Origin: Hexactinellida sp. DTS-2022
Taxonomy: Eukaryota; Porifera; Hexactinellida
Assembly (NCBI GenBank): GCA_028753945.1
Contig: JAPNXP010000002.1
Coordinates: forward strand, 7,564,001 to 7,628,000
Length of the DNA stretch: 64,000 bases
Reading direction: 5' to 3'
Below the pieces are notes generated by a model. It was given only the letters and a program-made list of their open reading frames with translations. It was not told the origin of the DNA and searched no databases. Within the stretch, counting starts at the first letter, position 1; the number at the start of each line of letters is the position of its first letter. The position numbers and the translations under genes were made by a program. Of the stretch, positions 1-54,607 are shown one piece after another.

Positions 1-171
1 GATGACAACCCTGAATCCTGCAATGTAATAAGTCCCCAAGGCAAACCAATGCAGATTCCAAAATGCATGGTTGACCCTCAAGGGGCTTACATTAACGTTG
101 TTGGATCCCGCGTTGGCGATCCGAGGCAATCCTTTTCGTCACAAACCAGGAAGCATAAAAACTACCGCTGA
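1..171 (+). CDS. 3' end of an unrecognised reading frame cut by the window edge
   Basis: Frame 1 is open from the first base to a TGA at 169-171, giving 56 residues with repeated PQG tripeptides (SPQGKPMQIP, later VDPQGAYINVVG). The C terminus is basic and Ser/Gln/Arg-rich. No domain is recognised. The stretch is less AT-rich than the DNA after it, which fits coding sequence, but the start lies outside the window. It could be the last exon of a host gene or part of a transposon ORF. The stretch from 172 to 540 shows nothing further recognisable. Confidence 0.35.
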   Translation, partial: DDNPESCNVISPQGKPMQIPKCMVDPQGAYINVVGSRVGDPRQSFSSQTRKHKNYR

Positions 172-540
172 TGGCAGAAGCAGGGAGGAAGGGATATGCA
201 GAGAAGAGTGCCATACAGTTTGGTTAGAGAGCTCTGGAATGGGTCTATACGACTAATATTGTATATCGGGAAGTATTTAACAGCTAAGCTGCAACCCGTA
301 GCATTGTAAGAGGCTATAATTTGGGGTCGAAACCCAACTGTTTATGCCGACTAATTCGTCGCAAGGCGACGGGTCACTTGGCTAGTGAAATGAAGAGATC
401 TTGCTCAATGTGAAACCGTAAAATGGGTGTCTTTGTTCCTGAGAGGTGATTTGTACTCAAAACATTTTTATGACATGTATTCATAGAATCCGGTACACGT
501 ATAATATTTAATTGCGTTATTTGAGAATTGCATTCAAATC

Positions 541-1639
541 TTTATTATTAAATCTCGATTGTTGTTTGTTTGTTTGTGTGTGTGTGTGTTTGTTTGTCCG
601 GATTATATTAAAGTGATGGGGGAATAGAAACCGCAATTAATATTGGGATATAAACTAACTTTCAAATGTTATAATAGGTAAACAAATGTTATAATAGGTA
701 AACAAGTATGCCGAACACGAATTTCGCGTTTATAAATTTCCCATATTAATATTTGTTGTTGTTGTTTACACAAAATAGGTAAACAAATTAATGAAAATTC
801 AAAATCAACCTAGAAGTTAGCTTCCAACGGATATTATAGGTAAACAAGTATGCTGAACACGAATTTCGCATTTACAAATTTATGATATGAATATTTATTG
901 TTGTTGTTTACACAAAATAGGTAAACAAATTTATGAAAATTCAAAATCAACCTAGAAGTTAGCTTTCAACGAGTATTATAGGTAAACAAGTATGCTGAAC
1001 ACGAATTTCGCATTTATAAATTTATAATATGAATATTTGTTGTTGTTGTTTACACAAAATAGGTAAACAAATTAATGAAAATTCAAAATCAACCTAGAAG
1101 TTAGCTTTCAACGAGTATTATAGGTAAACAATATGCTGAACACGATTTTCGTGGTTAAAATTTTCTAATATGAATATTTGTTGTTGTTGTTTACACAAAA
1201 TAGGTAACAAATTAATGAAAATTCAAAATCAACCTAGAAGTTAGCTTTCAATGGGTATTATAGGTAAACATGTATGCTGAACACGATTTTCGCCTTTAAA
1301 TTTTCTAATATGAATATTTGTTGTTGTTGTTGTTGTTTACTCAAAATAGCTAAACAATTTAATTAAAATTCAAAATCAACCTAGAATTTAGCTTGCAATG
1401 GATATTATAAGTAAACAAGTGTGCTGAACACGAATTTCGCATTTATAAAATTCTAATATGAGTATTTGCTGTTGTTGTTTACACAAATAGGTAAATAAAT
1501 TAATGAAATTCAAAATCATAACGTCCCTTTCTACCATTTACATTGTAGAAAATGTGAGGAGTAAGGCCGCACAGCGGCCGTTAACTTGAGGTGCGTAGTA
1601 CCGATCTGTCGCAAAGCGACCGAGACCGAAGGGCTCGTA
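541..1639 (+). mobile_element. Family A Helitron-like nonautonomous repeat, copy A1
   Basis: The left end reads ATTATTAAATCTCGATTG, followed by a (GTTT)n/(GT)n tract and TGTTTGTCCGGA. The middle holds about six tandem units of 140-150 bp, each with TTGTTGTTGTTTACAC, GTAAACAA repeats, ACCTAGAAGTTAGC and CTGAACACGAATTTCGC. The right end has three hairpins: TACCATTTACATTGTAGAAA, GGCCGCACAGCGGCC and GTCGCAAAGCGAC, then CGAGACCGAAGGGCTCGTA. There is no terminal inverted repeat and no obvious target duplication. Those traits, with an internal minisatellite and 3' hairpins, resemble nonautonomous Helitron/Helentron elements. The canonical CTRR terminus is absent, so the class is inferred. Confidence 0.7.
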
Positions 1640-5315: not shown

Positions 5316-7632
5316 TTGCAAAGAACTGAAGTTGCAAAAGAACTAACTGATACATCTGTGAATAGGTATTTCTATAATCAATTCGAGTCATCCGAAAACA
5401 CTGACTTGGCACTTAATTATGGCAATTTAAATAAAATTCGAAGTTCTTCAGTCTTACGGAAAGCGAAATTTGATTTATCTAGCTTACAAAGATATTATAA
5501 TGACAATTGAACTGAATTAATTAGTCTACAACAGTATTATCAGAGCATTAACATAGGTGGTCATGTTACCGGTTACATTCAATCTTTAGGACATAATCCA
5601 TTTATTATTCATCTATACAGTGAAGATCAAATTCGAATTTTAACATCTTTCAAAGAAACAAGCGTAATCCTTCACTTATACTCCACTGGTTCTATAATTA
5701 GAAAAATTGAACCATCACAAAAGAAAGTATTTTATTATGCCCTTACAGTAAGACATCCTACATACACAACTAGTCCAGTTCCGCTAGCAGAGATGATTAG
5801 TTCCGGACACACAAGCGCTGAAATCACTTATTTTTTACACAAATGGTCCCTAGATGCAAAGAAAATACTAGGGAGTAATCTTAATATTTCACAAATTCGA
5901 AATAGACTTCAGCTGGGCTTTAATTCACAGTACATCCAATGTTTTTCTTAGGTGCGATATGGATTCTTATCTTGATAAGTGTTGGAGTAGAGTAGTAAAC
6001 AATGTGGAAGAAACAGAAATCCAAGTAGTTTTGCACTTATGTTCAGCCCATTTAATGCATAGTGTAGCTTATCATATAAATAAGAAATTCAATTTAAATA
6101 AGGATGTAAAAAAGCTATTTTTACATTCTTTTGGATTCATTGTGCGCTGTACCGACATCTCTGATATAAATATATTATTTAGTTCTTTGTGTTATGTTTT
6201 TAAGAGTAGATCATTAAGTTCAAAGGTGAAAACTCATATGAATACATTAGAATCATATATACGTCATGAATACCATAACTTAACCGAGGTTAGCCACAAT
6301 CTAGAAGAAGAAGATTTCAATAATTCGATTGCTACCACAGTAAAACCTTTAAGGAAAGATCTCCATTTGGGAGACATTTTGTTAGCATTGCCAAACTTTG
6401 CGAAAATGATATTAATAATAATGCTTCAAAAAGTATACTAAATCCCAATCCTTGCTATAATCCAGATCTTATAGAATACTTGTTAATTTATTACTTGCCA
6501 ATTTTACCTTTATGGAGTGGTATCATATTAGGATTGAAAAGTATTTCAGTAGGTTCAAATTATGCTCATTGTAGTAATGCTGTCGTAGAGAATTGGATGC
6601 GTATTGTAAAGTTAAATATTTGGGCTCTGAAACTAATTTAAGACCTGGAGATCTTATTAAAAAATTGTATTCTGGTATAGTAAGTAGGATTCGTGCATTT
6701 CGGTTCGCCTTTCATCCGAGAGCTAATAAAGTTTTTAAAGGTCATAAACGATTGAGAGATAATTCGGAAGAGCAAAGTATTGAAGAGTGGTCAAGGAAAG
6801 TAAACAAACATGTGGCTATTTAAAACCTAAAATTTATGAATTTCCTATGATGAAAAAAATCAAAGTTGATAATAAAGCTCATAAAATTAAAGACAAATTT
6901 GTCCCTCGAAAATATGAAAAATTATCTGCCTTACATAAGGATTGTAGATTACCAGAAGTTAAAGTAGCTTCCATCATAACTGATGAAGATTTGGTAGAAA
7001 CGGGTATTATCGTTATAGTTTACCAAACTTTCGTCCACCTCACATTGAGTGGCAAATTGAAACTTGTAAAAAATGGAATTTGCAATTTTGTCAGCAGGTG
7101 GCACACTCCTTTTCTGATATCTTACCGAACAAGGAAGGTTTGTTTATTTATGATCCACATTTGATGGAATATATAGTAGGAGATGGAATATATAGTAGGA
7201 GATGGAAATTGCTACTTTTCTACTATTTCATACCTTATAATCGGAAGTAAAGGATATCATTTAGATATACGAACCCTAATAGTTGAAAATATGCTTGGAA
7301 AATTAAGCATGAGCTGTAATAAATATTTGCGTACAAAGTATGTGTACACTCAGGGTAATTATAGAAATGTGCAGGACTGGGTTAACAAAATGGGAATGAA
7401 TAAGAATGGGAAATGGGCTACGGACCTGGAGGTTTTCGCAACTGCACTGCTGTTTAACATTGATATTTGGATATATTTGGGTCCTCTTGGAACACGTTGG
7501 GCAAGCTTTTCAGGAAATGGATCAAGTTTTGATCAGCTAATAAAGACACCAACATCAAATGGTTTGTATATACAGAATTTGGCTAATCATTATGAGCCAA
7601 TTCTTTCTGTTAAGTTAGGAAATCATACTTAG
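5316..7632 (+). pseudogene. Decayed DDE-like transposase with C-terminal OTU protease domain
   Basis: A row of plus-strand frames forms one broken gene. Frame 5316-5948 has one internal TGA (about 5508) and reads GHVTGYIQSLGHNPF, VILHLYSTGSIIRK, KVFYYALTVRH, VPLAEMISSGHTSAEI. I recall this order from invertebrate transposon proteins whose first block is usually HLDATG; here the Asp is Tyr, so catalysis is probably lost. Frame 5959-6441 gives CSAHLMHSVAYHINKK. The next frame gives YYLPILPLWSGIILG and AVVENWMRIVKLNI, with a putative catalytic Glu. Frames 6593-6823 and 6787-7164 follow, then the OTU domain. At least four frame breaks are visible. One is a 19-bp tandem duplication (unit GATGGAATATATAGTAGGA) at about 7163-7201, exactly at the OTU active-site start. 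The superfamily name is uncertain. Confidence 0.65.
7183..7632 (+). CDS. OTU-like cysteine protease domain (3' part of the broken gene)
   Basis: 149 residues. The Asp-Cys box GDGNCYFSTISYLI contains the catalytic Asp and Cys of OTU deubiquitinases, and near the end NHYEPIL supplies the catalytic His region. Between them FATALLFNIDIWIY matches the helical/strand middle of OTU folds. Unlike the upstream transposase part, this domain is uninterrupted to its stop. The ATG at 7183 lies within the second copy of a 19-bp duplication and is probably not the original start; the domain was fused to the transposase. An OTU activity would remove ubiquitin or act as a polyprotein protease. The function in the element is unknown. 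Confidence 0.75.
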   Translation: MEYIVGDGNCYFSTISYLIIGSKGYHLDIRTLIVENMLGKLSMSCNKYLRTKYVYTQGNYRNVQDWVNKMGMNKNGKWATDLEVFATALLFNIDIWIYLGPLGTRWASFSGNGSSFDQLIKTPTSNGLYIQNLANHYEPILSVKLGNHT

Positions 7633-9262: not shown

Positions 9263-9956
9263 TTTGAATTGTAAAGACTTCAAATAAGAATCGTCTTTAA
9301 TTAATTAATTAAAGTAAGATTAGTTATTATAAATAGAAATAGGAATCCGTGGAGTATTTACGTTACTATTTTGAATAATAGAATTGACATTATCAACAAT
9401 GTAACAAACAACTAGCATCATCATAATAACATATAGTATGTAATATTCTATAGTATCAGTATACTTGAGTATACATATGGAGAATAAAATGCAAATTTGG
9501 TCAAAAATGAATATTTGTATTTAAAAATTGAACCATAAAATGTATCAAGTGAGATATAAACGTTGTTAAAAGGAAATATCTCTATAATAAATATTTGTCG
9601 AGTTATTAACCAAAAACCAAGGTCAAAATTATATTGAGTTTTGCTAACTCATCATGACGATTTTGGTATTATTAAAATGTAATATGAAATGTACCAAGTT
9701 TGTTCTTTCGAATGATATAACTATTTCTTATACTGGACTTTTTGAGTTATAAGCCTGAAAGCATGGTTTTTGAATCCGCTGCTAAGATAACACTCGTAAA
9801 TTATTTCCTATAATTATTATGCTTGTTATTTTCTGTTATACTCATTAAATTTTCATTCCTGTTTTTAAATTAATTAGATAAATCAATTTGAATAGTCTGC
9901 AAATAATAATGTATTGTACGCAAGTGAGATGTACGCAAATGTGCTAGACCCCCTAA

Positions 9957-10753
9957 ATCTATATTATTAAATCTCGATTGTTGTTTGTTTGTTTGTTTGT
10001 TTGTGTGTTTGTCCGGATTGTATTAAAGTGACGGGGGGATAGAAACCGCATTAATATATGAGATACTCACTAACTTTCAAATGTTATAATGGGTAAACAA
10101 GTATGCTGAACACGAATTTCGCGTTTATAAATTTATCATATTAATATTTGTTGTTGTTGTTTACACAAAATAGATAAACAAATTAATGAAAATTCAAAAC
10201 ATACCTAGAAGTCAGCTTTCAACGGGTATTATAGGTAAACAAGTATGCTGAACACGAATTTCGCGTTTATAAATTTCTCATATTAATATTTGTTGTTGTT
10301 GTTTACACAAAATAGGTAAACAAATTAATGAAAATTCAAAATATACCTAGAAGTCAGCTTTCAACGGGTATTATAGGTAAACAAGTATGCTGAACACGAA
10401 TTTCGCGTTTATAAATTTATAATATGAATATTTGTTGTTGTTGTTTACACAAAATAGGTAAACAAATTAATGAAAATTCAAAATCAACCAAGAAGTTAGC
10501 TTTCAACGGGTATTATAAGTAAACAAGTATGCTGAACACGAATTTCGCATTTATAAAATTCTAATATGAGTATTTGTTGTTGTTGTTGTTTACACAAATA
10601 GGTAAACAAATTAAATGAAAATTCAAAATCATAACGTCCCTTTCTACCATTTTCCATGGCAGATCGGGTGAGGAGTAAGGCCGCATAGCGGCCGTTAACT
10701 TGAGGTGCGTAGCACCGATCTGTCGCAAAGCGACCGAGACCGAAGGGCTCGTA
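9957..10753 (+). mobile_element. Family A repeat, copy A2
   Basis: Same organisation as A1: AATCTATATTATTAAATCTC at the left, GT-rich tract, TGTTTGTCCGGATTG, about four internal units, hairpin GGCCGCATAGCGGCC, and CGAGACCGAAGGGCTCGTAT at the right. Its left end overlaps the right 9-bp duplication of the 1700-9951 element. Confidence 0.75.
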
Positions 10754-10894: not shown

Positions 10895-11040
10895 ACTATA
10901 AATATAAAGAATAGGCATTCGCATTCGAGTTCTTCTCTCCAACTTTTTGAAAACAACTAAAACTCTAATTTGCTACACTTAGAAAATATAACAGAAATGC
11001 TAATAATATCGAAACTTGGCATCGAAGGAAACAAGAAAAC
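10895..11040 (+). promoter_or_regulatory. Possible promoter and first exon of the tandem-exon gene
   Basis: CTATAAATATAAAG at about 10898-10911 resembles a TATA box. About 85 bp further an ATG (10996) opens a 44-nt frame (MLIISKLGIEGNKK) ending at GTAAGAAG, a good splice donor. It is 430 bp upstream of the first in-frame exon of the gene at 11468. The link is inference. Confidence 0.3.
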
Positions 11041-11084
11041 GTAAGAAGTGCTGATTCGGAGAGCGTAACTTCTCTTGAAACTCC

Positions 11085-11230
11085 AGACTCGGTGTTTAAC
11101 TCAAGATTCTCTTAGCCAGAAACCTAGGGAGTGGATGGGGATGGGCGCGGAACCCCAAACTTTGCAGCGTGAAATTATGGGACTATACAAGTGTTGAATT
11201 ATGGGATAAGTGTGAAATTATTGAAGTACT
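11085..11230. repeat. 146-bp duplicated segment (also at 24362-24500)
   Basis: Starts AACTCAAGATTCTCTTAGCC, contains GGGATGGGCGCGGAACCCC and AAATTATGGGACTATACAAG, and is nearly identical to 24362-24500. In both places it leads directly into a MITE end CAGTGGAACTCGCTTAGT, so the repeat and the MITE left end form one dispersed unit. Confidence 0.8.
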
Positions 11231-11437
11231 ACAGTGGAACTCGCTTAGTTCGGCTTAATTAATGGATATACGAATAATCGGGACAAACGGCTAAGAAACG
11301 GATTTTTCCATAGCTGTCCCGTAATAACCATAAATACCAGTGCTCGACAAATTAGGTGGTTTGGAGGCGTTAGCCACCAAGGATCTTTCTTAAGCCACAA
11401 AATTTTGCCTTTGGTCGCTTAAGCGGCTTCCACTAGT
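11229..11437. mobile_element. MITE with CAGTGGAA-type ends
   Basis: Left CAGTGGAACTCGCTTAGTTC, right GCTTAAGCGGCTTCCACTAG. The outer TA at each side is compatible with a pogo/mariner-type insertion. The interior carries ATTAGGTGGTTTGGAGGCG. Confidence 0.55.
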
Positions 11438-11467
11438 ATATTAATAATACATGTTATTGGGAATTAG

Positions 11468-13735
11468 ATGCATAATGAACGGGACCGTGCAGTCCTCGGA
11501 CTCATCAAACAGTTGGTAGGTGTTTATAATAGTGAAATTTGGTTAAGAAATTATCTAAATTGTTAAACACAATTATTTTAGACTCAAATGCTTGAACGTA
11601 GAGGGTCTAGCCCATCGGCCCCATCCCGGCGACGGCGGGATGGAGATGAATTCAGGTGAGTATATTGTTTGCAAGCAGAGACTTTGGTTTACTTACTGTC
11701 TGATATAGAAACCTTGAACGTAGAGGGTCTAGCCCATCGGCACCATCCCGGCGACGGCGGGATGTTGATGAATTCAGGTGAGTATATTGTTTGCAAGCAG
11801 AGACTTTGGTTTACTTACTGTCTGATATAGAAACCTTGAACGTAGAGGGTCTAGCCCATCGGCACCATCCCGGCGACGGCGGGATGGTGATGAATTCAGG
11901 TGAGTATATTGTTTGCAAGCAGAGACTTTGGTTTACTTACTGTCTGATATAGAAACCTTGAACGTAGAGGGTCTAGCCCATCGGCACCATCCCGGCGACG
12001 GCGGGATGTTGATGAACTCAGGTGAGTATATTGTTTGCAAGCAGAGACTTTGGTTTACTTACTGTCTGATATAGAAACCTTGAACGTAGAGGGTCTAGCC
12101 CATCGGCACCATCCCGGCGACGGCGGGATGTTGATGAACTCAGGTGAGTATATTGTTTGCAAGCAGAGACTTTGGTTTACTTACTGTCTGATATAGAAAC
12201 CTTGAACGTAGAGGGTCTAGCCCATCGGCCCCATCCCGGCGGGATGGTGATGGACACCGGTGAGTATATTGTTTGCAAGCAGAGACTTTGGTTTACTTAA
12301 TGAATTATTTAGTAACGAAATAATCAAACTCCTAGTAGGGAGAAAAATGGAGAGGGAAAGCCCGTGAGTTATTGTTTTGCAAGCTGAGACTTTGGTTTAC
12401 TTAATGTCTGATATATAAACTATATACGCACAGAGCTCCGAATGGGCAAAAGGGAGAAATTCCTATTTTTATTTTATATTCATCTACTAAAATTATTTAC
12501 TCGCCTTAATTTTTATATTTTGCTTTTATTATTTATCATACTTTCTTAAATTAAAAAATTTTTTATACAAAGTAAAAATTAAGGCGGGTAAGTACGTATA
12601 TTGATCATTCGCGGCGCCAGGTTTTTCGAACTGGGTGGACAGAGGGGAGGCAACCAATTTTTCAGGGGGCAGCTTTTTAATATGTGAAATTTATCTGAAA
12701 ACAAGGCAGATTCGATGAACTTGTCATACTTACAAACTATCCAGGAATATAGGGACTTCATCGAAAATCCAGGAAATTTTTTGAAATTATATTTGCTTAT
12801 ATTCTCATTACTAAATAAGCATTATATTACAAATAATGTTATTCTTGAAGATAATAATCATCACAAATAGTGTTAATAAATTTTTATTTGCTACTTTGGC
12901 GGTGCGGCGATGCTACTAATCGAGATATAGGGTAATAATGTGTGTTCTGAATGAAAAGCGAGCGAGCTAAATTTTTAGACATTCGAGCCTCTAGAAATGT
13001 GTTCAGGGGAATGAGTAAATTCCAGGGCATTGTTGGCATGAGTCCAGGGATTAGCCTGGGCGAAGTTATGACATAAGATTTTAACTTGAGAATACCCTAA
13101 ATCCTGCCCCCCCCCCTTCCACCCTCTGGCGCCGCGCCTGATATTGATAGCAAGCTGAGACTATGGTTCACTATATTCTCTGATATAGTTACTCTAATTC
13201 AAAGAAAAAAAGAATTGTAAGTATATTGTTTGTCAGGTTACACATTGGTTAGCTCTAATTATGCGGATTTCTCTGATATAGTTAGTTGAAGAAAAATCAA
13301 CTTTCCCAGGAGGAGAGGTGGCAAAAAAAAATCTTGTAAGTATATTGTTTGTCAGGGTACACATTGTTTGCATATCTTATCGTATTCTATTCTCTGATGT
13401 AGATGGAAAGAAGCCGCCAATTACAGCAAGTAAGTATATTGTTTGTCAGGTTACACATTGGTTAGCTCTAATTATACGGGGGGGGGGGGAGAAATTCTTG
13501 TAAGTATATTGTTTGTCAGGGTACACTTTGTTTACATATCTTGTCGTATTCTATTCTCTGATGTAGATGAAAAGCCACACGCGGCCACGAGTACGGCAAG
13601 TAAGTTTTTACTTTTAGACATTGTCCAATTTTTTCCATAATATTTTTCTTTATTGACCATAAATCGAAAAATTGAGGTAATAATTTATTTCCATTTCTAT
13701 TTTCATCTTAGAGACAGAAGAAAAAGATAAATTAG
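11468..13735 (+). CDS. Spliced gene made of tandem exon-intron modules; basic Arg/Ser-rich repeat protein
   Basis: Exons follow one frame with consistent phases: 11468-11515 (MHNERDRAVLGLIKQL), 11582-11655, 11709-11777, 11831-11899, 11953-12021, 12075-12143, 12197-12259, 12313-12363 (NEIIKLLVGRKMERESP), 13189-13216, 13282-13335, 13403-13429, 13567-13599 and 13712-13735, which ends in TAG. Five near-identical 69-nt exons (first and last slightly changed) each encode 23 residues with core RRGSSPSAPSRRRRD. The intervening introns are 53 nt with donor GTGAGT and acceptor CTGATATAG. Later introns use GTAAGTATATTG and TCTCTGATRTAG. The intron 12364-13188 was enlarged by a hAT MITE. The C terminus is Lys/Arg-rich (RQKKKIN). 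The protein is strongly basic, possibly nucleic-acid binding. No family is recognised. The in-frame TAG before 11468 doubles as an acceptor AG, so upstream exons are possible. The splicing model is derived from sequence only. Confidence 0.7.
11590..12312 (+). repeat. Tandem 122-bp exon+intron module, six copies
   Basis: Exact 122-bp period: exon starts are at 11709, 11831, 11953, 12075 and 12197. Differences between copies are few and mostly in-frame: GAAGAT/GTTGAT/GGTGAT near the exon end, AATTCAG versus AACTCAG, and a 6-nt deletion in copy 6. Introns 1-5 look identical, implying recent duplication or homogenisation. Confidence 0.95.
12606..13140. mobile_element. hAT MITE inside an intron of the tandem-exon gene
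   Basis: 535 bp. Ends CATTCGCGGCGCCAGG and CTGGCGCCGCGCCTG; perfect 8-bp duplication ATATTGAT at 12598-12605 and 13141-13148. Removing it restores a short intron ending AGCAAGCTGAGACTATGG..CTGATATAG, like its neighbours. Confidence 0.9.
13217..13599 (+). repeat. Second exon-intron duplication in the same gene (213-bp unit, second copy degraded)
   Basis: Introns starting at 13217 and 13430 share GTAAGTATATTGTTTGTCAG and TTACACATTGGTTAGCTC. Introns starting at 13336 and about 13500 share CAGGGTACAC and CGTATTCTATTCTCTGATGT. In the second copy the 54-nt exon and its acceptor are replaced by a G-tract, so one exon appears lost. Confidence 0.8.
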
Positions 13736-13739
13736 TACG

Positions 13740-14505
13740 TTAATTCCATTCTTTACTTCAGGCTTTCTTAATTAACCTGGGTTAATTTGGCCATTGTTGG
13801 GGGGGGGGGGGGGGGTGGTGGATTAGTTACAGTAAACTCCCATGATAATGATATCGAAGCCGGATATAACGAAATATGTACCCGTTTATAACGAAATGTG
13901 AAATTCTTAATTTAACGAGTGTAATTTGAATTGAAATCACTTTAAGAATCCAAAAATTGTATTCGTACTAACCAGAAATTCGTATTATTCGAGTTTAATG
14001 AGGTTCTGCTAAACGCCATATAATATTCCTCTAGGTTATTAATAAACAAGGAGCTCTTTACATCAACGATAAAAATATAATTCATAGTTAGTAGTTGCTA
14101 TAAAATGTTGATAATTATCATAATAATTTCATTTGTTTCTTACTCAAAACGAATGTAGTTTGGAATAAGTCTTTTAAAGCATTTCAATTGATAACCTGGG
14201 CGTCTATACAGGTGTTGCTAATATTAGCTATGATTTACTGTTACAATTTTCAGCCCCCTAAAATATATTTGTTACAGAAGCCACAGCCCTCATGTACTTC
14301 GTCAGGGGAAAATGGACTTTGCTCACTGTTGGCCAGGGGGTAAATGGTGCAAAAAAGTTTAAGAACCCATGTTTAGATAAACTTGGCTCAATACGAGTTT
14401 TACAAATCTCATCTCTTCTAGATTAGAATGTTTAGAAATGGATGGCTGGAGGGGGAGTAGAGGAGGTTCTTCTTAGTTATTAGCTAATTATGATTAATAA
14501 TAACT
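13740..14505. other. Noncoding stretch with a possible MITE end
   Basis: Contains a G-tract at about 13799-13815 and ACAGTAAACTCCCATGATAA with ATATAACGAAA at about 13833, resembling the end of a TA-type MITE whose other end is not clear. Nothing else was recognised. Confidence 0.4.
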
Positions 14506-18179: not shown

Positions 18180-20579
18180 CAGTGGTTCTCAACCTTTTTC
18201 GGGCTGTGTACCCTTTTACCTCAAGACGAGGCCTCACGTACCCCACATTAGAGAAAGAGTCTAGTACTCTAGTAACTCTAGGCGAGATTCATTAAAAGAA
18301 TTTTTTTGTAAAATTGGAAGAATATATCATTATTTAATGGGGAAATTATAAAATACTCAAGTTTATCAGAACATTACAAAAAGTTTCTTGACTTTCAATG
18401 GGAGGGCTGTGCTTGCTTAGCTTCCACCAGTGCTTCAATTCTGGGTTCAGTTTTAGACAAAGCGATACGAAGATCAGGCTCTACGCTTAACCGAGAACGA
18501 AATCTGTTTTTTATAAAGAAAAGTGCAGAGAATCCTTGTTCACATAGATAAGTACTCGGAAACATCAACAACCCACTCACAGCTATAGTACATACACTAG
18601 AGTAGTACGCACTCATTTTAGACCAGAACTTAATCAGTGGTAAGGTCTCAAATGCATCTTTTGCTGTTGAATTATTAACGAATTCCACGAATTCTTCTTG
18701 CCCCTCGCCGGGTAGTGAACAGACTTCTACAATGAACGGATTTCGAATTAATGTAACATTCATTTCACTCAGATCTGGAAAGTAAGATTGAAACTCTTCC
18801 CGCAAGGAGGACAGGTGGGCTTTCACTAGTTTTATGTTCTCTGCATCAAGTTTCTTACTCCCAACTGCCGCTGTAAGATTCTCAAAAATATCTAGGTTCC
18901 CATCCATAGCCTTTCCTTCCCATAAGTCCAACTTCATGATGAAAGCTCTGATTTTATCTATGAAATCAACAACAGTTGTAAATCGCCCTTGAAGTGATTT
19001 GTTTAGTAAATTTAAGCGTGTAAAAATGTCATCCAAGTAAGAAAGTCTAATAACCCACTCTTTATCCAACAACTTAATACTAAAATCTCTTGACTTGCCT
19101 CGGAAACTATTGCGCTCAAAGAATTCTACCATCTCATTTCTCAGTGAATTGACTCTAGACAACATATTACCACGAGAAAGCCAACTAACTTCGGTGTGAA
19201 AGAGCAACGCCTCCTGGTCATCATCAAATTCTTGGCACAACAATCGGAAGAGCCGAGTATTGAGGGCGCTAGATTTTATACAATTTACCATGTGGATTAC
19301 ATCTTCAAGGGTTGCTTTGAGCTCAGGTGGTAGTGTCTTAGATGCCAGAGCATATCGATGGATCATGCAATGGATATGTTTTGTATTAGGATTCACTGCT
19401 TTCACTCGTGCCCGAAATCCAGAGCGATTTCCAAGCATGGCAGGAGCACCATCAGTAGTGCACGCACTAACATTATCCCAAGAAAGTCCCCTTTTCCGAA
19501 AATATTCAGAAACTTCATTGAAAACATCCTCTCCCCTCGTAGTGGATTCCAAACAATGGCAAAACAGGAATTCTTCCTTGAAATCTCCATCCTTAATGTA
19601 TCTTGCGAAAACAAGTAGCTGAGCACAACTAGCAACATCCGTTGACTCATCCAACTGAATTGCAAACTTATTAAGCGGTGCTCCGCGTATTTCAGCTACT
19701 ACTTGTTGCTCAATATCGTCTGCAATATCATAAATTCGTCTTTGAACTGTGTCGTTTGAGAGAGGCACACAATTGAGCTTCTTTTCCTCAACATCTCCAA
19801 TTAAGCAGCGAACAATGTCCTTACAACAGGGTAGTATAAGCTTCTCTGCGATTGTGTGAGGGAATTTTTCTTTGGCGATCCTCAGAGCAACCATGTATGA
19901 GGCGCGAAGAGCTGCTTGATTTCGTTTATTTACATGACCACTCTTATCCAATCGAACTCGTTTCAATCCTATTTCTTTCTGCTTGAAGAATTCAACATCT
20001 TTATCTAATAACTCCGGATGGCAACCGCTAAGGTGCCTCTTGAGCAGGCTTGGCTTCATTGAATGCTCAGAAAGCACTTTAAAACACTCCACGCACTGTG
20101 GATGTTCGCATCCTTTTTCCAGTATGGTTGTGAATCCATATCGAATATAATTATCATTATATTTTCGTTTTTTCCCCGATTCCTTGATTGATGAATATGC
20201 CATCTGATTAATACTGTAATGATATATTATAGTATGTAAATAAAGTTTAAAGAGCTTTTATACAAATTTAACAGATTTAGTTACCATACGAGTAGCAACT
20301 ATGCGAGACCGCCAGTCAGTGTCAAAAGTAAACCACTATTGTCTGATAATTAGGATACAATAATGTATCAATATCATTTTAATTGTCACAGGATGCCAAT
20401 TACAATTGTTTACTTTAGACGAATCTATATCAAAAGGTTAATAAAACTTCGGTAGTGGTACTATTGATCTGACAATTATTTTTTATGATTTCTATAACTT
20501 TTCGAAATCTCTCGGCGTACCCCTGAAAAACATCTCGCGTACCCCTAGGGGTACGCGTACCCCAGGTTGAGAAACGCTG
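18180..20579 (-). mobile_element. Apparently complete hAT transposon (ZBED5-like)
   Basis: 2,400 bp with ends CAGTGGTTCTCAACCT and AGGTTGAGAAACGCTG, and a perfect 8-bp duplication ATTTAACC at 18172-18179 and 20580-20587. The empty site AATTCATTTAACCAATCAAT exists in B1. Intact ends, identical duplications and an unbroken transposase point to a recent insertion. Confidence 0.95.
18395..20203 (-). CDS. hAT transposase, BED zinc finger, intact, 602 aa
   Basis: This single-exon frame encodes a full hAT transposase that should cut and rejoin the element at its CAGTGGTTCTC ends in the nucleus. A BED-type zinc finger lies at residues 37-62 (C37, C40, H57, H62). The RNase-H-like catalytic core follows: D185 in AIQLDESTDVAS, D251 in TTDGAPAMLG, the C..H motif HCMIHRYA (C279, H282), and W341 in EVSWLSRG. 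Catalytic Glu is E555 in TYLCEQGFSAL, within the C-terminal dimerisation region, followed by KNRFRSRLSVEPDLR. The layout matches ZBED5/SCAND3-like hAT proteins of animals, of similar length. The ATG at 20203 is followed at once by the basic stretch KKRK, a plausible nuclear signal. No stops, shifts or missing catalytic residues are seen. Bases 20204-20579 and 18180-18394 are untranslated ends. Confidence 0.93.
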   Translation of the reverse strand: MAYSSIKESGKKRKYNDNYIRYGFTTILEKGCEHPQCVECFKVLSEHSMKPSLLKRHLSGCHPELLDKDVEFFKQKEIGLKRVRLDKSGHVNKRNQAALRASYMVALRIAKEKFPHTIAEKLILPCCKDIVRCLIGDVEEKKLNCVPLSNDTVQRRIYDIADDIEQQVVAEIRGAPLNKFAIQLDESTDVASCAQLLVFARYIKDGDFKEEFLFCHCLESTTRGEDVFNEVSEYFRKRGLSWDNVSACTTDGAPAMLGNRSGFRARVKAVNPNTKHIHCMIHRYALASKTLPPELKATLEDVIHMVNCIKSSALNTRLFRLLCQEFDDDQEALLFHTEVSWLSRGNMLSRVNSLRNEMVEFFERNSFRGKSRDFSIKLLDKEWVIRLSYLDDIFTRLNLLNKSLQGRFTTVVDFIDKIRAFIMKLDLWEGKAMDGNLDIFENLTAAVGSKKLDAENIKLVKAHLSSLREEFQSYFPDLSEMNVTLIRNPFIVEVCSLPGEGQEEFVEFVNNSTAKDAFETLPLIKFWSKMSAYYSSVCTIAVSGLLMFPSTYLCEQGFSALFFIKNRFRSRLSVEPDLRIALSKTEPRIEALVEAKQAQPSH

Positions 20580-25231: not shown

Positions 25232-25894
25232 TACGAGCCCTTCGGTCTCGGTCGCTTTGCGACAGATCGGTGCTACACACCTCAAGTTAACGGCCGCTGT
25301 GCGGCCTTACTCCTCACACTTTCTACCATGGAAATGGTAGAAAGGGACGTTATGATTTTGAATTTTCATTAAATAGTTTACCTATTTGTGTAAACAACAA
25401 CAACAAATATTTATATTAGAAATTTGTAAATGCGAAATTCGTGTTCAGCATACTTGTTTACCAATAATACCCGTTGAAAGCTAACTTCTAGGTTGATTTT
25501 GAATTTTCATAAATTTGTTTACCTATTTTGTGTAAACAACAACAACAAATATTTATATTAGAAATTTGTAAATGCGAAATTCGTGTTCAGCATACTTGTT
25601 TACCAATAATACCCGTTGAAAGCTAACTTCTAGGTTGATTTTGAATTTTCATTAATTTGTTTACCTATTTTGTGTAAACAACAACAACAAATATTAATAT
25701 GGGAAATTTATAAACGCGAAATTCGTGTTCGGCATACTTGTTTACCTATTATAACATTTGTTTACCTATTATAACATTTGAAAGTTAGTTTATATCCCAA
25801 TATTAATTGCGGTTTCTATTCCCCCATCACTTTAATATAATCCGGACAAACACACAAATACACACACACACAAACAACAATCGAGATTTAATAA
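25232..25894 (-). mobile_element. Family A repeat, copy A4
   Basis: Reverse orientation, about three internal units, ends CAATCGAGATTTAATAAT directly against the first base of B5 (ACGAGCCC). First member of a three-element array. Confidence 0.85.
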
Positions 25895-32688: not shown

Positions 32689-34300
32689 CGGTCTCGGTCG
32701 CTTTGCGACAGATCGGTGTTACGCACCTCAAGTTAACGGCCGCTGAGCGGCCTTACTCCTAACATTTTCTACCATGGAAATGGTAGATAGCTATCTAATT
32801 TTCATAAATTTGTTTACCTATTTGTGTAAACAACAACAACAACAAATACTCATATTAGAATTTTATAAATGCGAAATTCGTGTTCAGCACACTTGTTTAC
32901 TTATAATACCTATTGAAAGTTAACTTCTAGGTTGATTTTGAATTTTCATTAAATTGTTTAGCTATTTTGAGTAAACAACAACAACAACGACAACAACAAC
33001 AAATATTCATATTAGAAAATTTAAACGCTAAATTCGTGTTCAGCATACTTGTTTACCTATAATACTCGTTGAAAGCTAACTTCTAGGTTGATTTAGAATT
33101 TTCATTAATTTGTTTACCTATTTTGTGTAAACAACAACAAAAAATATTCATATGAGAAAATTTTAACCGCGAAATTCGTGTTCAGCATACTTGTTTACCT
33201 ATAAAACCCGTTGAAAGCAAACTTCTAGGTTGATTTTGAATTTCATTAATTTGTTTACCTATTTGTGTAAACAACAACAACAAATATTCATATCATAAAT
33301 TTGTAAATGCGAAATTCGTGTTTAGCATACTTGTTTACCTATAATACTCGTTGAAAGCTAACTTCTAGGTTGATTTAGAATTTTCATTAATTTGTTTACC
33401 TATTTTGTGTAAACAACAACAACAAATATTCATATGAGAAAATTTTAACCGCGAAAATCGTGTTCAGCATACTTGTTTACCTATAAAACCCGTTGAAAGC
33501 AAACTTCTAGGTTGATTTTGAATTTCATTAATTTGTTTACCTATTTTGTGTAAACAACAACAACAAATATTCATATCATAAATTTGTAAATGCGAAATTC
33601 GTGTTTAGCATACTTGTTTACCTATAATACCCGTTGAAAGCTAACTTCTAGGTTGATTTTGAATTTTCATAAATTTGTTTACCTATTTTGTGTCAACAAC
33701 AACAACAAATATTTATATTATATATTTATAAATGCGAAATTCGTGTTCAGCATACTTGTTTACCTATAATACCCGTTGAAAGCTAACTTCTAGGTTGACT
33801 TTGAATTTTCATAAATTTGTTTACCTATTTTGTGTAAACAACAACAACAAATATTTATATTATATATTTATAAATGCGAAATTCGTGTTTAGCATACTTG
33901 TTTACCTATAATACCCGTTGAAAGCTAACTTCTAGGTTGATTTTGAATTTTCATAAATTTGTTTACCTATTTTGTGTAAACAACAACAATAAATATTCAT
34001 ATCATAAATTTGTAAATGCGAAATTCGTGTTCAGCATACTTGTTTACCTATAATACCCGTTGGAAGCTAACTTCTAGGTTGATTTTGAATTTCATTAATT
34101 TGTTTACCTATTTTGTGTAAACAACAACAATAAATATTCATATCATAAATTTGTAAATGCGAAATTCGTGTTCAGCATACTTGTTTACCCCTTATAACTT
34201 TTGTTTACCAATTATAACATTTGAAAGTTAGTTTATATCTCATATATAAATGCGGTTTCTATTCCCCCATCACTTTAATACATCCGGACAAACAAACAAA

Positions 34301-47770: not shown

Positions 47771-49071
47771 CAAAGTGACTAAGAACAATTACACCCGGGG
47801 CATATCCACAAATCATCTACTCCATAACAAACTATAATAACATTGATGTTCCTCAAACATTGGTCATGGTACCAACCATCACAAATATCACAACATAGCC
47901 ATTCCACAAATACACTAACATCTTTAAAAAACACTACCACCCGCATTGTTTAATATACCACTTTCTTCAGTACCTCCACTAATTTTACATTGTACATCCA
48001 TATCCGGTGTCACTCTTGTTGCTATGGAATAGGCCCCGCTCTTATAGGTTACGCCCACGCTTTCGGGAGCGTTTGGCTTGTTTCAGAGCCCACCTAGGCT
48101 TCGTATTCTTTTCACAACTTATACTATTATAAATTCTCGCATTATCAAACTCTTTTACTAATTTATCTATTAAAATATAGCTGTTCAGTCCTAAATAATC
48201 GATTATACTTTCAATGCCAGCTACTCCTTCGTTGAAACGAAGGATACCTAAACTACAACCCAAATTCATCAAACTCAATTCAACCGGCTTTGTTTTGCTT
48301 ATACACTCCCAAATCATCCCATTAAGGTTCTCATTTAGATTTGAGGTGTTTCCACCTTGAACTTTCTCGAAAAATGAAACCGCAAAGTATGGACCTAAGA
48401 TATCTAAAATACGATCCTTACAGGCTGTACTGATGCACCTGGGATGTTTTGGGATTATATCTTTCAAAGCTAAGGCTTTCTGATACATGCAAAAGGATTC
48501 AGCACCCTTATTCCAGTATTTATGCATATCATGACAATTATCATCATTAGCAGCTGAATGATAAACAATTCCCAACAATGCATCACGGAATCAATTAGAT
48601 CACCACCAATTCACATCTTTACAACAACCACATAAAAAGAACTTTTCTTATCAATTATGTTATCTGGTAGAAGATTTATTTCAATAGTTAAATCTCCAAT
48701 ATCTTCACTATTCCCCCAACTAACTCTCCCTTTTTTCAAATCCCTAAGCGTAGATGGGCGATATTGTTCACTAACGGTTTTATCTGCGCTTCCGTTTTAC
48801 ATTGTCCTAATTCGTGCTGCAATAAGGTTTTTTGAGATGCAATAAATTATTTTTGTTTCTCTACTAAATGTATTCTTACACGCTTCTGAACATGGCTCAG
48901 ACATTCCTCCCGCCTTATTATTATATTAAATTCTCCATAAATATTATTTTCTGCTAATATATTTATACTTTTATCGTCCCCATCGGCAATGACTGTGGAA
49001 TAAATTAATTTTTGTTCAATTGACTTCCTAAAATAACTGGTGCTGATTTTGACTCCAGCGAAACTGAACTA

Positions 49072-49331
49072 CCGTATTTTCCCGAATAAAAGCCCCGGCA
49101 CTTATTGTTTTCGTGGGACAAAATTGACCTGAAATTTTTGTGAAAAATCCAGAATATATTATCTAGGTCGGTTCTAATGGTTTCTTCCAACAGTATACCT
49201 ACCGAAATTGCCAAAATCAATGGAATTACATTACAGTGATCAACTAATGTATATAAATTTTATCATACCAATCTCATTTTTATTGTCCCGGCGCTTATTC
49301 AAGCCCCCGGCGCTTATTCGGGAAAATACGG
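49072..49331. mobile_element. TA-flanked MITE in the Mutator-like pseudogene
   Basis: 260 bp, ends CCGTATTTTCCCGAATAAAA and complement CCGTATTTTCCCGAATAAGC, TA on both sides. The GGCGCTTATT motif repeats inside. Confidence 0.9.
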
Positions 49332-49820
49332 TATATTTGCCATACTCTTTGGCCTGGCATTTAGATTCATGGATTTCCTACCATATTTTATATTCAGCTA
49401 AATCTATTCGGTTTTCCCTAAGAGCTTGTTGCTTCTCAATACACTTTTTACAATTATTGCATGCAATTTCATAGTTAGTACTTTCCCATTTCCGACGGAA
49501 ATAGCTCGAGCTACGCAGTATCTAGAAAATCCCCCGCCCGATTTGCCCCCCTTTTTTGATAGGCACCGTCATATGATACTGTAACCTCTAAAAATTCTGA
49601 TTCGGGCGTATTGTGTATACTTCTCAGCTCTAGGGCTGCCCGCATACAACTAGCTTGTGCTATATCCGTGCAAACTTTAGATAAATAATCCTGAACCTTG
49701 TAAAATGCTCTATTTGACAACGTCGAAGGTATACCAATGAATGTATTTAAGAAATCAAGTCCCGACTTACCAATGCCAACTAATCTATCACCTAAATTTT
49801 GTAAATATTATTGCCATACT

Positions 49821-53501: not shown

Positions 53502-54607
53502 TCAAGAACACTTGTCACAGGTGAAAGAACCAGCTGACACAGTATCGTAGTCTACATCAGCAAAGTAGCAATGTAGCCAGTCTGAGCAGACATCACAGCA
53601 TACCCATTTCGACTCTATCTTCTTCCCATATCGTCTGAGTGCTACTGGGTCCGGCTCTCTCTTATTGCATATGACACATAGTGTTGTCGACTCATCTGCA
53701 CTACTAGAAGCATCACCAGAAGACTGACTAGAGCCAGAAGGTGTACTACGTTCATTGAGTTTTCTCTTCCCGCCTGTAGAAACTCCTCTCGCCTGTCTAT
53801 CCCGTTCTCGGGTGCGCCCACGCATCTTGCCTTGTGTGTTCTAAGCTCCATAACGTCCTCCTCTATAGCTACCCCCGCCTTCTGATTTCAGCAGTGCCTT
53901 CTCTCAGTACTGCTTGACTAGCTTCATTCTTCTCTTTCGTCGTTGGAAATATGACTTCCTCTTTAGAGGTGCGGGAAGATTCCAGCTTATGTACTCGATT
54001 GGAAATAGACTTGTAGACCTGAAGAGAAGCAGCCAGTCCAAGGTCATACATTATACTGAAGAGGGATAGTTCCCCCTCGTTAAAGTTTAGGACAGAGATG
54101 ACAGTGCTTATCCTGATAGATTGAGGAGACACATAGTTTTTCTTGGAACAAAGACACCATATCATGTTGTGCAGGGATTCGTTTGCATTTTGAGTTATAC
54201 CTAGCGTCAGATGGCTACAGAATTCAGTCGTACCATAAGTATTGGGGCTTCTTGTACCTTCTGGATGTCCATGGTTGTGAAGGTAGTCAAAGTAGCCGGT
54301 GTTGTGGAGGTAGATGGTTTAATCCATCGACACGATGTGTTCTCCGGACAGCCAGAATGATTTCCTGCAGCATAATCGAGGAGAAGGCGTAGAGCTCGTG
54401 ATAGGTTATCAGGTGTTGTCCCACGATTCTGTAAGATAACAGTAGAATAGTTCGCGGCGATATAGTCAGCTTTCCATTCGGGGAGCTTGTGATGTATATA
54501 AGTTTTTTCTTTGTATTAGACTTCAATTTCTTTAGGTTCCTCTTCAGACGTTTGGCAACATGCGTTAGACAATTTTCTTTCTGTACTTTCATAAGGGGAT
54601 ATATCAT
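53502..54607 (-). pseudogene. Second Mutator-like transposase remnant with C-terminal PHD finger
   Basis: Minus-strand frames: 54607-54287 starts with VQKENCLTHVAKRLKRNLKK, corresponding to C.GHVQKR. A shifted frame carries TPDNLSRALRLLLDYAAGNH, and GITQNANESLHNMIWCLC leads into frame 54165-53869 (IRISTVISVLNFNEGELSLF, IMYDLGL). This is the C-terminal half of the Mutator-like transposase domain, with its NANES box intact. Another shift leads to the frame 53825-53502, basic and Ser-rich, ending in a full PHD-type pattern: LCVICNKRE, then WVCCDVCSDWLH, then FTCDKCS. The N-terminal half with the DG.WQKRG box is absent. The arrangement transposase then PHD parallels the copy at 47779-50741, though sequence similarity is low. 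Confidence 0.8.

Follow-up and report, generated by a model that had tools for sequence, protein, structure and literature searches.

A predicted gene with a tandem exon–intron array and its dispersed, unevenly diverging family in a hexactinellid sponge

The six-unit array and the predicted gene

The window, that is, the whole stretch of 64,000 nucleotides analyzed here (C11:7564001-7628000), carries on its forward strand a predicted gene at positions 11468-13735. An earlier note on this DNA had claimed six tandem units of about 122 bp, each composed of an exon and an intron, and this arrangement was confirmed at 11582-12312 by the comparison of the introns and by Tandem Repeats Finder, which detected a period of 122 at 11591-12299 with 5.9 copies and 97% matches. 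Exon 1 (11468-11515; start codon, MHNERDRAVLGLIKQL), open in the joined frame, is followed by intron 1 (66 nt, 11516-11581) and by exon 2, which forms a single fused exon of 74 nt with the first exon of the array (11582-11655). Introns and exons then alternate in the joined frame through 11656-12259, with five introns of 53 nt and identical sequence (11656-11708, 11778-11830, 11900-11952, 12022-12074, and 12144-12196), four exons of 69 nt (11709-11777, 11831-11899, 11953-12021, and 12075-12143), and one of 63 nt (12197-12259), giving array exon lengths of 74, 69, 69, 69, 69, and 63 nt in order. The 69-nt exons vary at two positions only, and the first and sixth exons diverge more. The splice sites had been described as alike in all units; this holds for the donor, also in the sixth unit, and for the acceptor CTGATATAG in five of the six, since the sixth A-type intron (12260-12312) ends in the altered acceptor AATTATTTAG and the final array period is 116 bp.

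Downstream of the array, the last A-type exon (51 nt, phase 2-2, 12313-12363) precedes a predicted intron of 825 nt (12364-13188), whose ends (12364-12420 and 13140-13188) are those of an A intron with inserted DNA between them. A bridge exon of 28 nt (13189-13216) shifts the frame from phase 2, in which the array modules begin and end, to phase 0, the phase of the B and C exons. It is followed by a B intron (65 nt, 13217-13281), a B exon (54 nt, phase 0-0, 13282-13335), a C intron (67 nt, 13336-13402), and the first C exon (27 nt, 13403-13429). The subsequent predicted intron of 137 nt (13430-13566) corresponds to a truncated second B unit, in which the start of a B intron (13430-13478) is fused to the end of a B exon and succeeded by the second C intron (13500-13566). 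The second C exon (33 nt, MKSHTRPRVRQ, 13567-13599), a last intron of 112 nt (13600-13711), and a terminal exon with the stop (RQKKKIN, 13712-13735) complete the model, all on the plus strand.

The claim that the flanking exons remain in the same frame up to the stop at 13735 also stood, with 13 exons and 678 nt containing a single stop, and the downstream joins depend on the 825-nt intron with its inserted DNA and on the 137-nt intron with its truncated unit. The exons measure 24-74 nt, and 11 of the 12 introns 53-137 nt. All 12 predicted introns have GT-AG ends, and the remaining two frames of the joined exons hold 7 and 33 stops. When the exons were shuffled with dinucleotides preserved and array copies kept alike, 7 of 5000 shuffles remained open. 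Judged from the sequence, the gene is presumably transcribed and spliced, and the predicted protein of 225 aa would contain 51 Arg and have a pI of 11.7. Neither this protein nor that predicted for the related locus L051 contains cysteine. By eye, the predicted starts MHNERDRAVLG and MKRNKRRGRGG have no hydrophobic start or signal peptide, and a further upstream exon is possible. Three proteins matched no Pfam family at E ≤ 10, the search of PDB sequences with the window protein was empty, and window 11000-14500 had no Rfam match at E ≤ 1.

A dispersed family grown from exon–intron units

The genome searched comprises 112 Mb in 18 contigs. A query with a Hox-type homeodomain yielded just three matches, of 45-46%, which are presumably Msx-, NK-, and Bar/Bsh-like. 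The donor pattern, allowing up to one mismatch, was found at 46 places and a control pattern at none. Fourteen stretches of 9,901 bases were fetched (GC 0.364), which together with the window cover all 46 places. Family units were present in 13 of these 14 stretches, across seven contigs, and accounted for 45 of the 46 donor-pattern places; the exception, L047, holds only a 33-nt fragment. A DNA search with exon 1 and intron 1 gave 12 places, one of which (C11:5955094) lies outside the fetched stretches, and intron 1 aligned at 12 places in eight loci with a mean column identity of 89%. L051, on contig C17, has its own fully open model of eight exons and 108 aa, the ends of which match the window gene; with its exons shuffled, the frame stayed open in 51 of 5000 cases. 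Other copies are damaged: L039 contains one in-frame TAG and one exon of 56 nt, L041 and L046 are shifted in frame near the end exons, and parts of L040 and L049 are missing. The terminal exon of the window gene resembles the lysine-rich ends of L051, L039, and L041, and the bridge exon measures 28 nt in the window and L051 and 61 nt in L039 and L041.

The duplication of whole exon–intron units, proposed from the window alone, was borne out, as adjacent units are alike in both exon and intron and the introns of the A, B, and C types are homologous. The A (53-54 nt), B (65 nt), and C (67 nt) introns can be aligned over their length, and with the splice sites excluded none of 2000 shuffles exceeded the A-B, the A-C, or the B-C score. 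For intron 1 and the last intron, homology to the module introns did not rise above shuffles (I1-A and I1-B were at shuffle level). Between the A, B, and C exons, mutual resemblance has been lost. Because the three intron types are homologous, much of the gene body would derive from one exon–intron unit, and it looks like a stack of unit copies of different age. Of 41 same-type units, 37 had an exon length that is a multiple of three; one unit comparison left out 13 of 54 units on account of length, type, or a stop.

Arrays were likewise found in other copies: in L039, glutamine/glycine-rich A exons and A exons of a second kind occur six times each, alongside five B exons; L041 carries four B exons, and the arrays of L040 and L043 consist of A-type exons. 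These separate A- and B-type arrays show that the kind of event seen in the window was repeated on different units. The window has six array exons, with exon 2 fused to an A-type exon, and L051 has exon 2 and one A exon, so on this comparison unit number is labile between near-identical copies.

Individual loci displayed further features. The A-type array of L043 (4555-5015, oriented locus coordinates) lacks exon 1, and an open frame approximately 1 kb from it presumably encodes an AMPK beta subunit. In L039 (4655-5276, oriented locus coordinates), two insertions interrupt the array, one within an intron and the second at an exon–intron border; at this border the donor is GTGCAT, and the insertion has an apparent flanking repeat of 8 bp, CCTAGGTG. 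A 142-bp tandem repeat forms separate arrays on both strands of the window (690-1518, 10074-10633, 25353-25753, and 32990-34189) and also flanks L051. At 18395-20257 of the window, on the minus strand, a 620-residue open frame resembles a ZBED/hAT-type transposase by eye and matched no Pfam family at E ≤ 0.01, and at 7180-7632, on the plus strand, an OTU-like cysteine protease domain (PF02338, 8.4e-6) lies within sequence that is missing at the matching place of L051. Mutator-like transposase remnants, some of them with PHD-finger-like ends, occupy the minus strand at 48042-49693 and 53502-54318 of the window and at 7626-9901 of L039, and at least 116 matches were detected genome-wide, many on C11. 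Additionally, a short element whose ends resemble CAGTGGAA..CGCTTAA / TTAAGCGGCTTCCACTG lies at 11220-11440 of the window and upstream of exon 1 in L040, L050, and L051; placed before exon 1, it might provide the 5' untranslated region.

Divergence of exons and introns between copies

Exons usually outlast introns. In this family, the predicted exons are the fast-changing part, a point absent from the earlier note. All divergence comparisons were made among paralogues within one assembly of one species. Unit against unit, the exons were more distant than the introns in 76 of 79 group comparisons, as in the B units of L039 and L041 (exon 0.222, intron 0.023). What is new here is best illustrated by the window and L051, which share collinear blocks (window 1-546, 1986-2466, 9797-9943, and 13855-14391) of 97.0-98.8% identity and thus form a young segmental duplication, broken up by insertions, in which single-copy exons far outpace introns. 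Over the whole alignment of the pair, 59 of 324 exon sites, 10 of 522 intron sites, and 35 of 1794 remaining sites differ, an exon count that includes exon 2 (partly non-homologous) and the array exons (perhaps not orthologous). Restricted to single-copy sequence, 17 of 178 exon sites differ, against 6 of 404 in introns (P = 1.6e-5) and 48 of 3142 (1.5%) in flanks (P = 2.3e-8), and introns do not differ from flanks (P = 1.00). The inserted DNA of the 825-nt intron, common to both copies, differs at 10 of 719 sites, and exon 1 differs at 3 of 45 aligned sites and the adjoining intron 1 at 0 of 66.

The exons changed faster than the introns in three of four single-copy pairs. Between L039 and L046, 33 of 251 exon sites differ, against 16 of 271 in introns (P = 0.0064) and 25 of 540 in flanks (P = 5e-5). 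Between L051 and L048, the exons (10/122) exceed the introns (5/228, P = 0.012), and the comparison with the short flanks (4/116) is not significant (P = 0.17). In the remaining pair, L039 and L041, for which the test was limited to exon 2, C, and the terminal exons, the exons (7/143) were not significantly faster than the introns (8/272, P = 0.41) and exceeded the flanks (51/2380) weakly (P = 0.043). Some exons are slow, namely exon 2 (0/29 between L051 and L048) and the terminal exons (1/24, 1/29, and 1/30). Since the introns diverge like the flanks, they are not specially conserved, and it is some of the exons that are fast. Base composition does not explain the contrast, as the sites involving G or C differ at 25 of 108 positions in exons and at 26 of 772 in noncoding sequence. 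Plain alignment inflates the exon difference (the A exon of L051 and L048 differs at 15 of 60 sites under a high gap cost and at 5 of 54 in a codon alignment), and we therefore relied on alignment by codon against the unit that matched best, on single-change codons, and on single-copy exons. In the group II pairs the exon spectrum is tilted toward A-G (51/145), from which nothing was drawn because these pairs overlap and the exons are purine-rich.

The silent sites are raised as well. In the codon alignment of the window and L051, with the closest array unit, silent changes amounted to 15.5 of 63.8 sites, replacement changes to 28.5 of 218.2, and intron changes to 9 of 522, part of the silent excess being contributed by array exons that are possibly paralogous. 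Silent sites exceeded introns at P < 0.05 in seven of nine pairs, and in six of seven when only single-change codons were used; loci recur among the pairs, which are not independent, and the P values are rough because sites within one exon are not independent either. In exon 1, the codon comparison of the window and L051 gave four silent changes and no replacement. Selection on the protein alone does not account for this raised silent change. Turnover of units may account for it in the arrays, and less easily in exon 1.

Explanations and comparison with known gene families

The modules, the joined frame, the family, and the exon–intron contrast can be read directly from the DNA, and we consider their likely source to be a protein-coding, spliced gene of a dispersed, fast-diversifying family that has grown by exon–intron duplication and whose introns are neutral. 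Such a gene would begin with a short leucine-containing segment (exon 1 and the first part of exon 2) and end in a lysine/arginine-rich tail; between them, a variable middle of small symmetric exons would have grown by repeated copying of one exon with its intron. The A, B, and C types would have arisen first, the local arrays later, and the six units of the window latest. The units were probably multiplied through unequal recombination between introns of nearly the same sequence, as short identical introns would offer a foothold by which units are gained or lost with the frame intact. Whole genes would also have been dispersed through segmental duplication, after which introns and flanks would drift neutrally and several exons would change several times faster, via substitutions and frame-keeping indels in multiples of three. 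The pattern may be likened to that of arms-race or reproductive protein families, with selection favoring change in the central part of a basic protein whose ends are conserved and with gain and loss of array units adding to the difference between copies. Selection is the presumed cause of the fast exons, and the product, very basic and by eye without a hydrophobic start, would be intracellular, disordered, and probably nucleic-acid-binding.

It is unlikely, although less so than the other alternatives, that the contrast is mostly apparent, with unit turnover causing paralogous exons to be compared, gene conversion keeping the introns alike, and the exons being older. Introns are indeed identical within one array although its exons differ, and in L051 the B exon is similar to the window's truncated second B unit, so that some of the contrast seen in arrays may stem from comparing units that are not orthologous; the prevalence of silent changes in some exons, such as exon 1, would also fit old constrained sequence. 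However, single-copy exons lacking a sister unit (exon 1, the last A exon, the bridge, and C) differ too, and distant flanks and the inserted DNA are as alike as the introns, which makes an intron-only homogenization unnecessary. Moreover, the fetched loci contain no near-identical donor exon, the best exon matches reaching 0.67-0.94 of the length against 0.96-1.00 for introns.

We regard it as improbable that the family is an accessory gene of a Mutator-like transposon and was spread by it. A Mutator-like transposase adjoins two family copies for certain, as an ORF (PF20700, 7.9e-24) that lies upstream with the same orientation in L039 and as a fragment between two copies in L049, but element ends were not found around the copies, and the resemblance in L040 and L042 was seen by eye only, with no tblastn hit in either. 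The family has about 20 copies against the far more numerous Mutator matches counted above, and contig C14, which holds the best Mutator match, is without any donor-pattern place.

Very improbable, in our judgment, is a rewriting restricted to exons, in which spliced RNA would be reverse-transcribed (as an error-prone or diverged copy) and converted back into the exons. The pattern points to it, as the contrast starts at the predicted exon edges and covers silent sites, and introns and flanks are equal in divergence; unlikely as it is, such rewriting would explain the silent excess directly. Conversion by cDNA, however, would tend to delete introns, and no intronless copy was found (two exon-junction patterns, up to three mismatches, 0 places); the fast change does not extend to exon 2 or the terminal exon, and here too the fetched loci yielded no donor exon. 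There is equally little to favor a tandem repeat or small-RNA array in place of a gene, in which the 53-67-nt elements would be conserved and the "exons" would be spacers, since the broken state of several family copies has to be set against open frames, indels in threes, GT-AG at every junction, a phase-changing bridge exon held at 28 or 61 nt, and the empty Rfam search. Mobile introns (introners) inserted many times would account for the many short near-identical introns, but are scarcely credible given that the exons were copied along with them and that all donor-pattern places except the L047 fragment lie in units of one family.

The favored reading, a spliced and duplicating gene family, has partial parallels elsewhere. 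Viperid three-finger toxin genes, as outlined in PMC2474615, likewise comprise paralogues with near-alike introns and some strongly different exon segments (ASSET), the origin of the new segments being unresolved in that account; they are described with three exons, secreted cysteine-rich products, and no tandem exon–intron modules, and their ten conserved cysteines contrast with the cysteine-free predicted proteins of the window and L051 and with the empty Pfam search. Schistosome micro-exon genes, in the features summarized in PMC10526429 and PMC4350168, share with the window family many short exons, mostly multiples of three, fast evolution, and transposon-rich surroundings, but have a signal peptide and introns of 100 to almost 5000 bp, whereas the window introns measure 53-137 nt save the one of 825 nt and no hydrophobic start was seen by eye. 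Aphid bicycle genes, according to the account in PMC9168663, resemble the window family in their many small internal exons of one phase, a structure that outlives the protein sequence; they encode secreted proteins with cysteine motifs (CYC-type), unlike the window and L051, and raised silent sites, a feature of the window family, are not among the bicycle-gene features compared from that account. Conotoxin genes, in the genome described in PMC10561478, have more diverged coding regions and transposon-rich introns. As no testable defining protein feature is held in common, the window family is like toxin, micro-exon, and bicycle genes in behavior and is not a member of any.

The arrays would represent a clear instance of protein lengthening through the joint copying of exon and intron, at several time depths within one gene. 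About a tenth of the exon sequence has changed, silent sites included, while the introns and flanks of the duplicates remain 98.5% alike, and if this is true in orthologous single-copy exons, it would imply either very strong and unusual selection or a mutation or conversion process restricted to exons. Rewriting confined to exons, if true, would be a DNA-level generator of diversity in an animal, with the exon–intron structure serving as the address. The short near-identical introns make the question easily testable by the sequencing of alleles.
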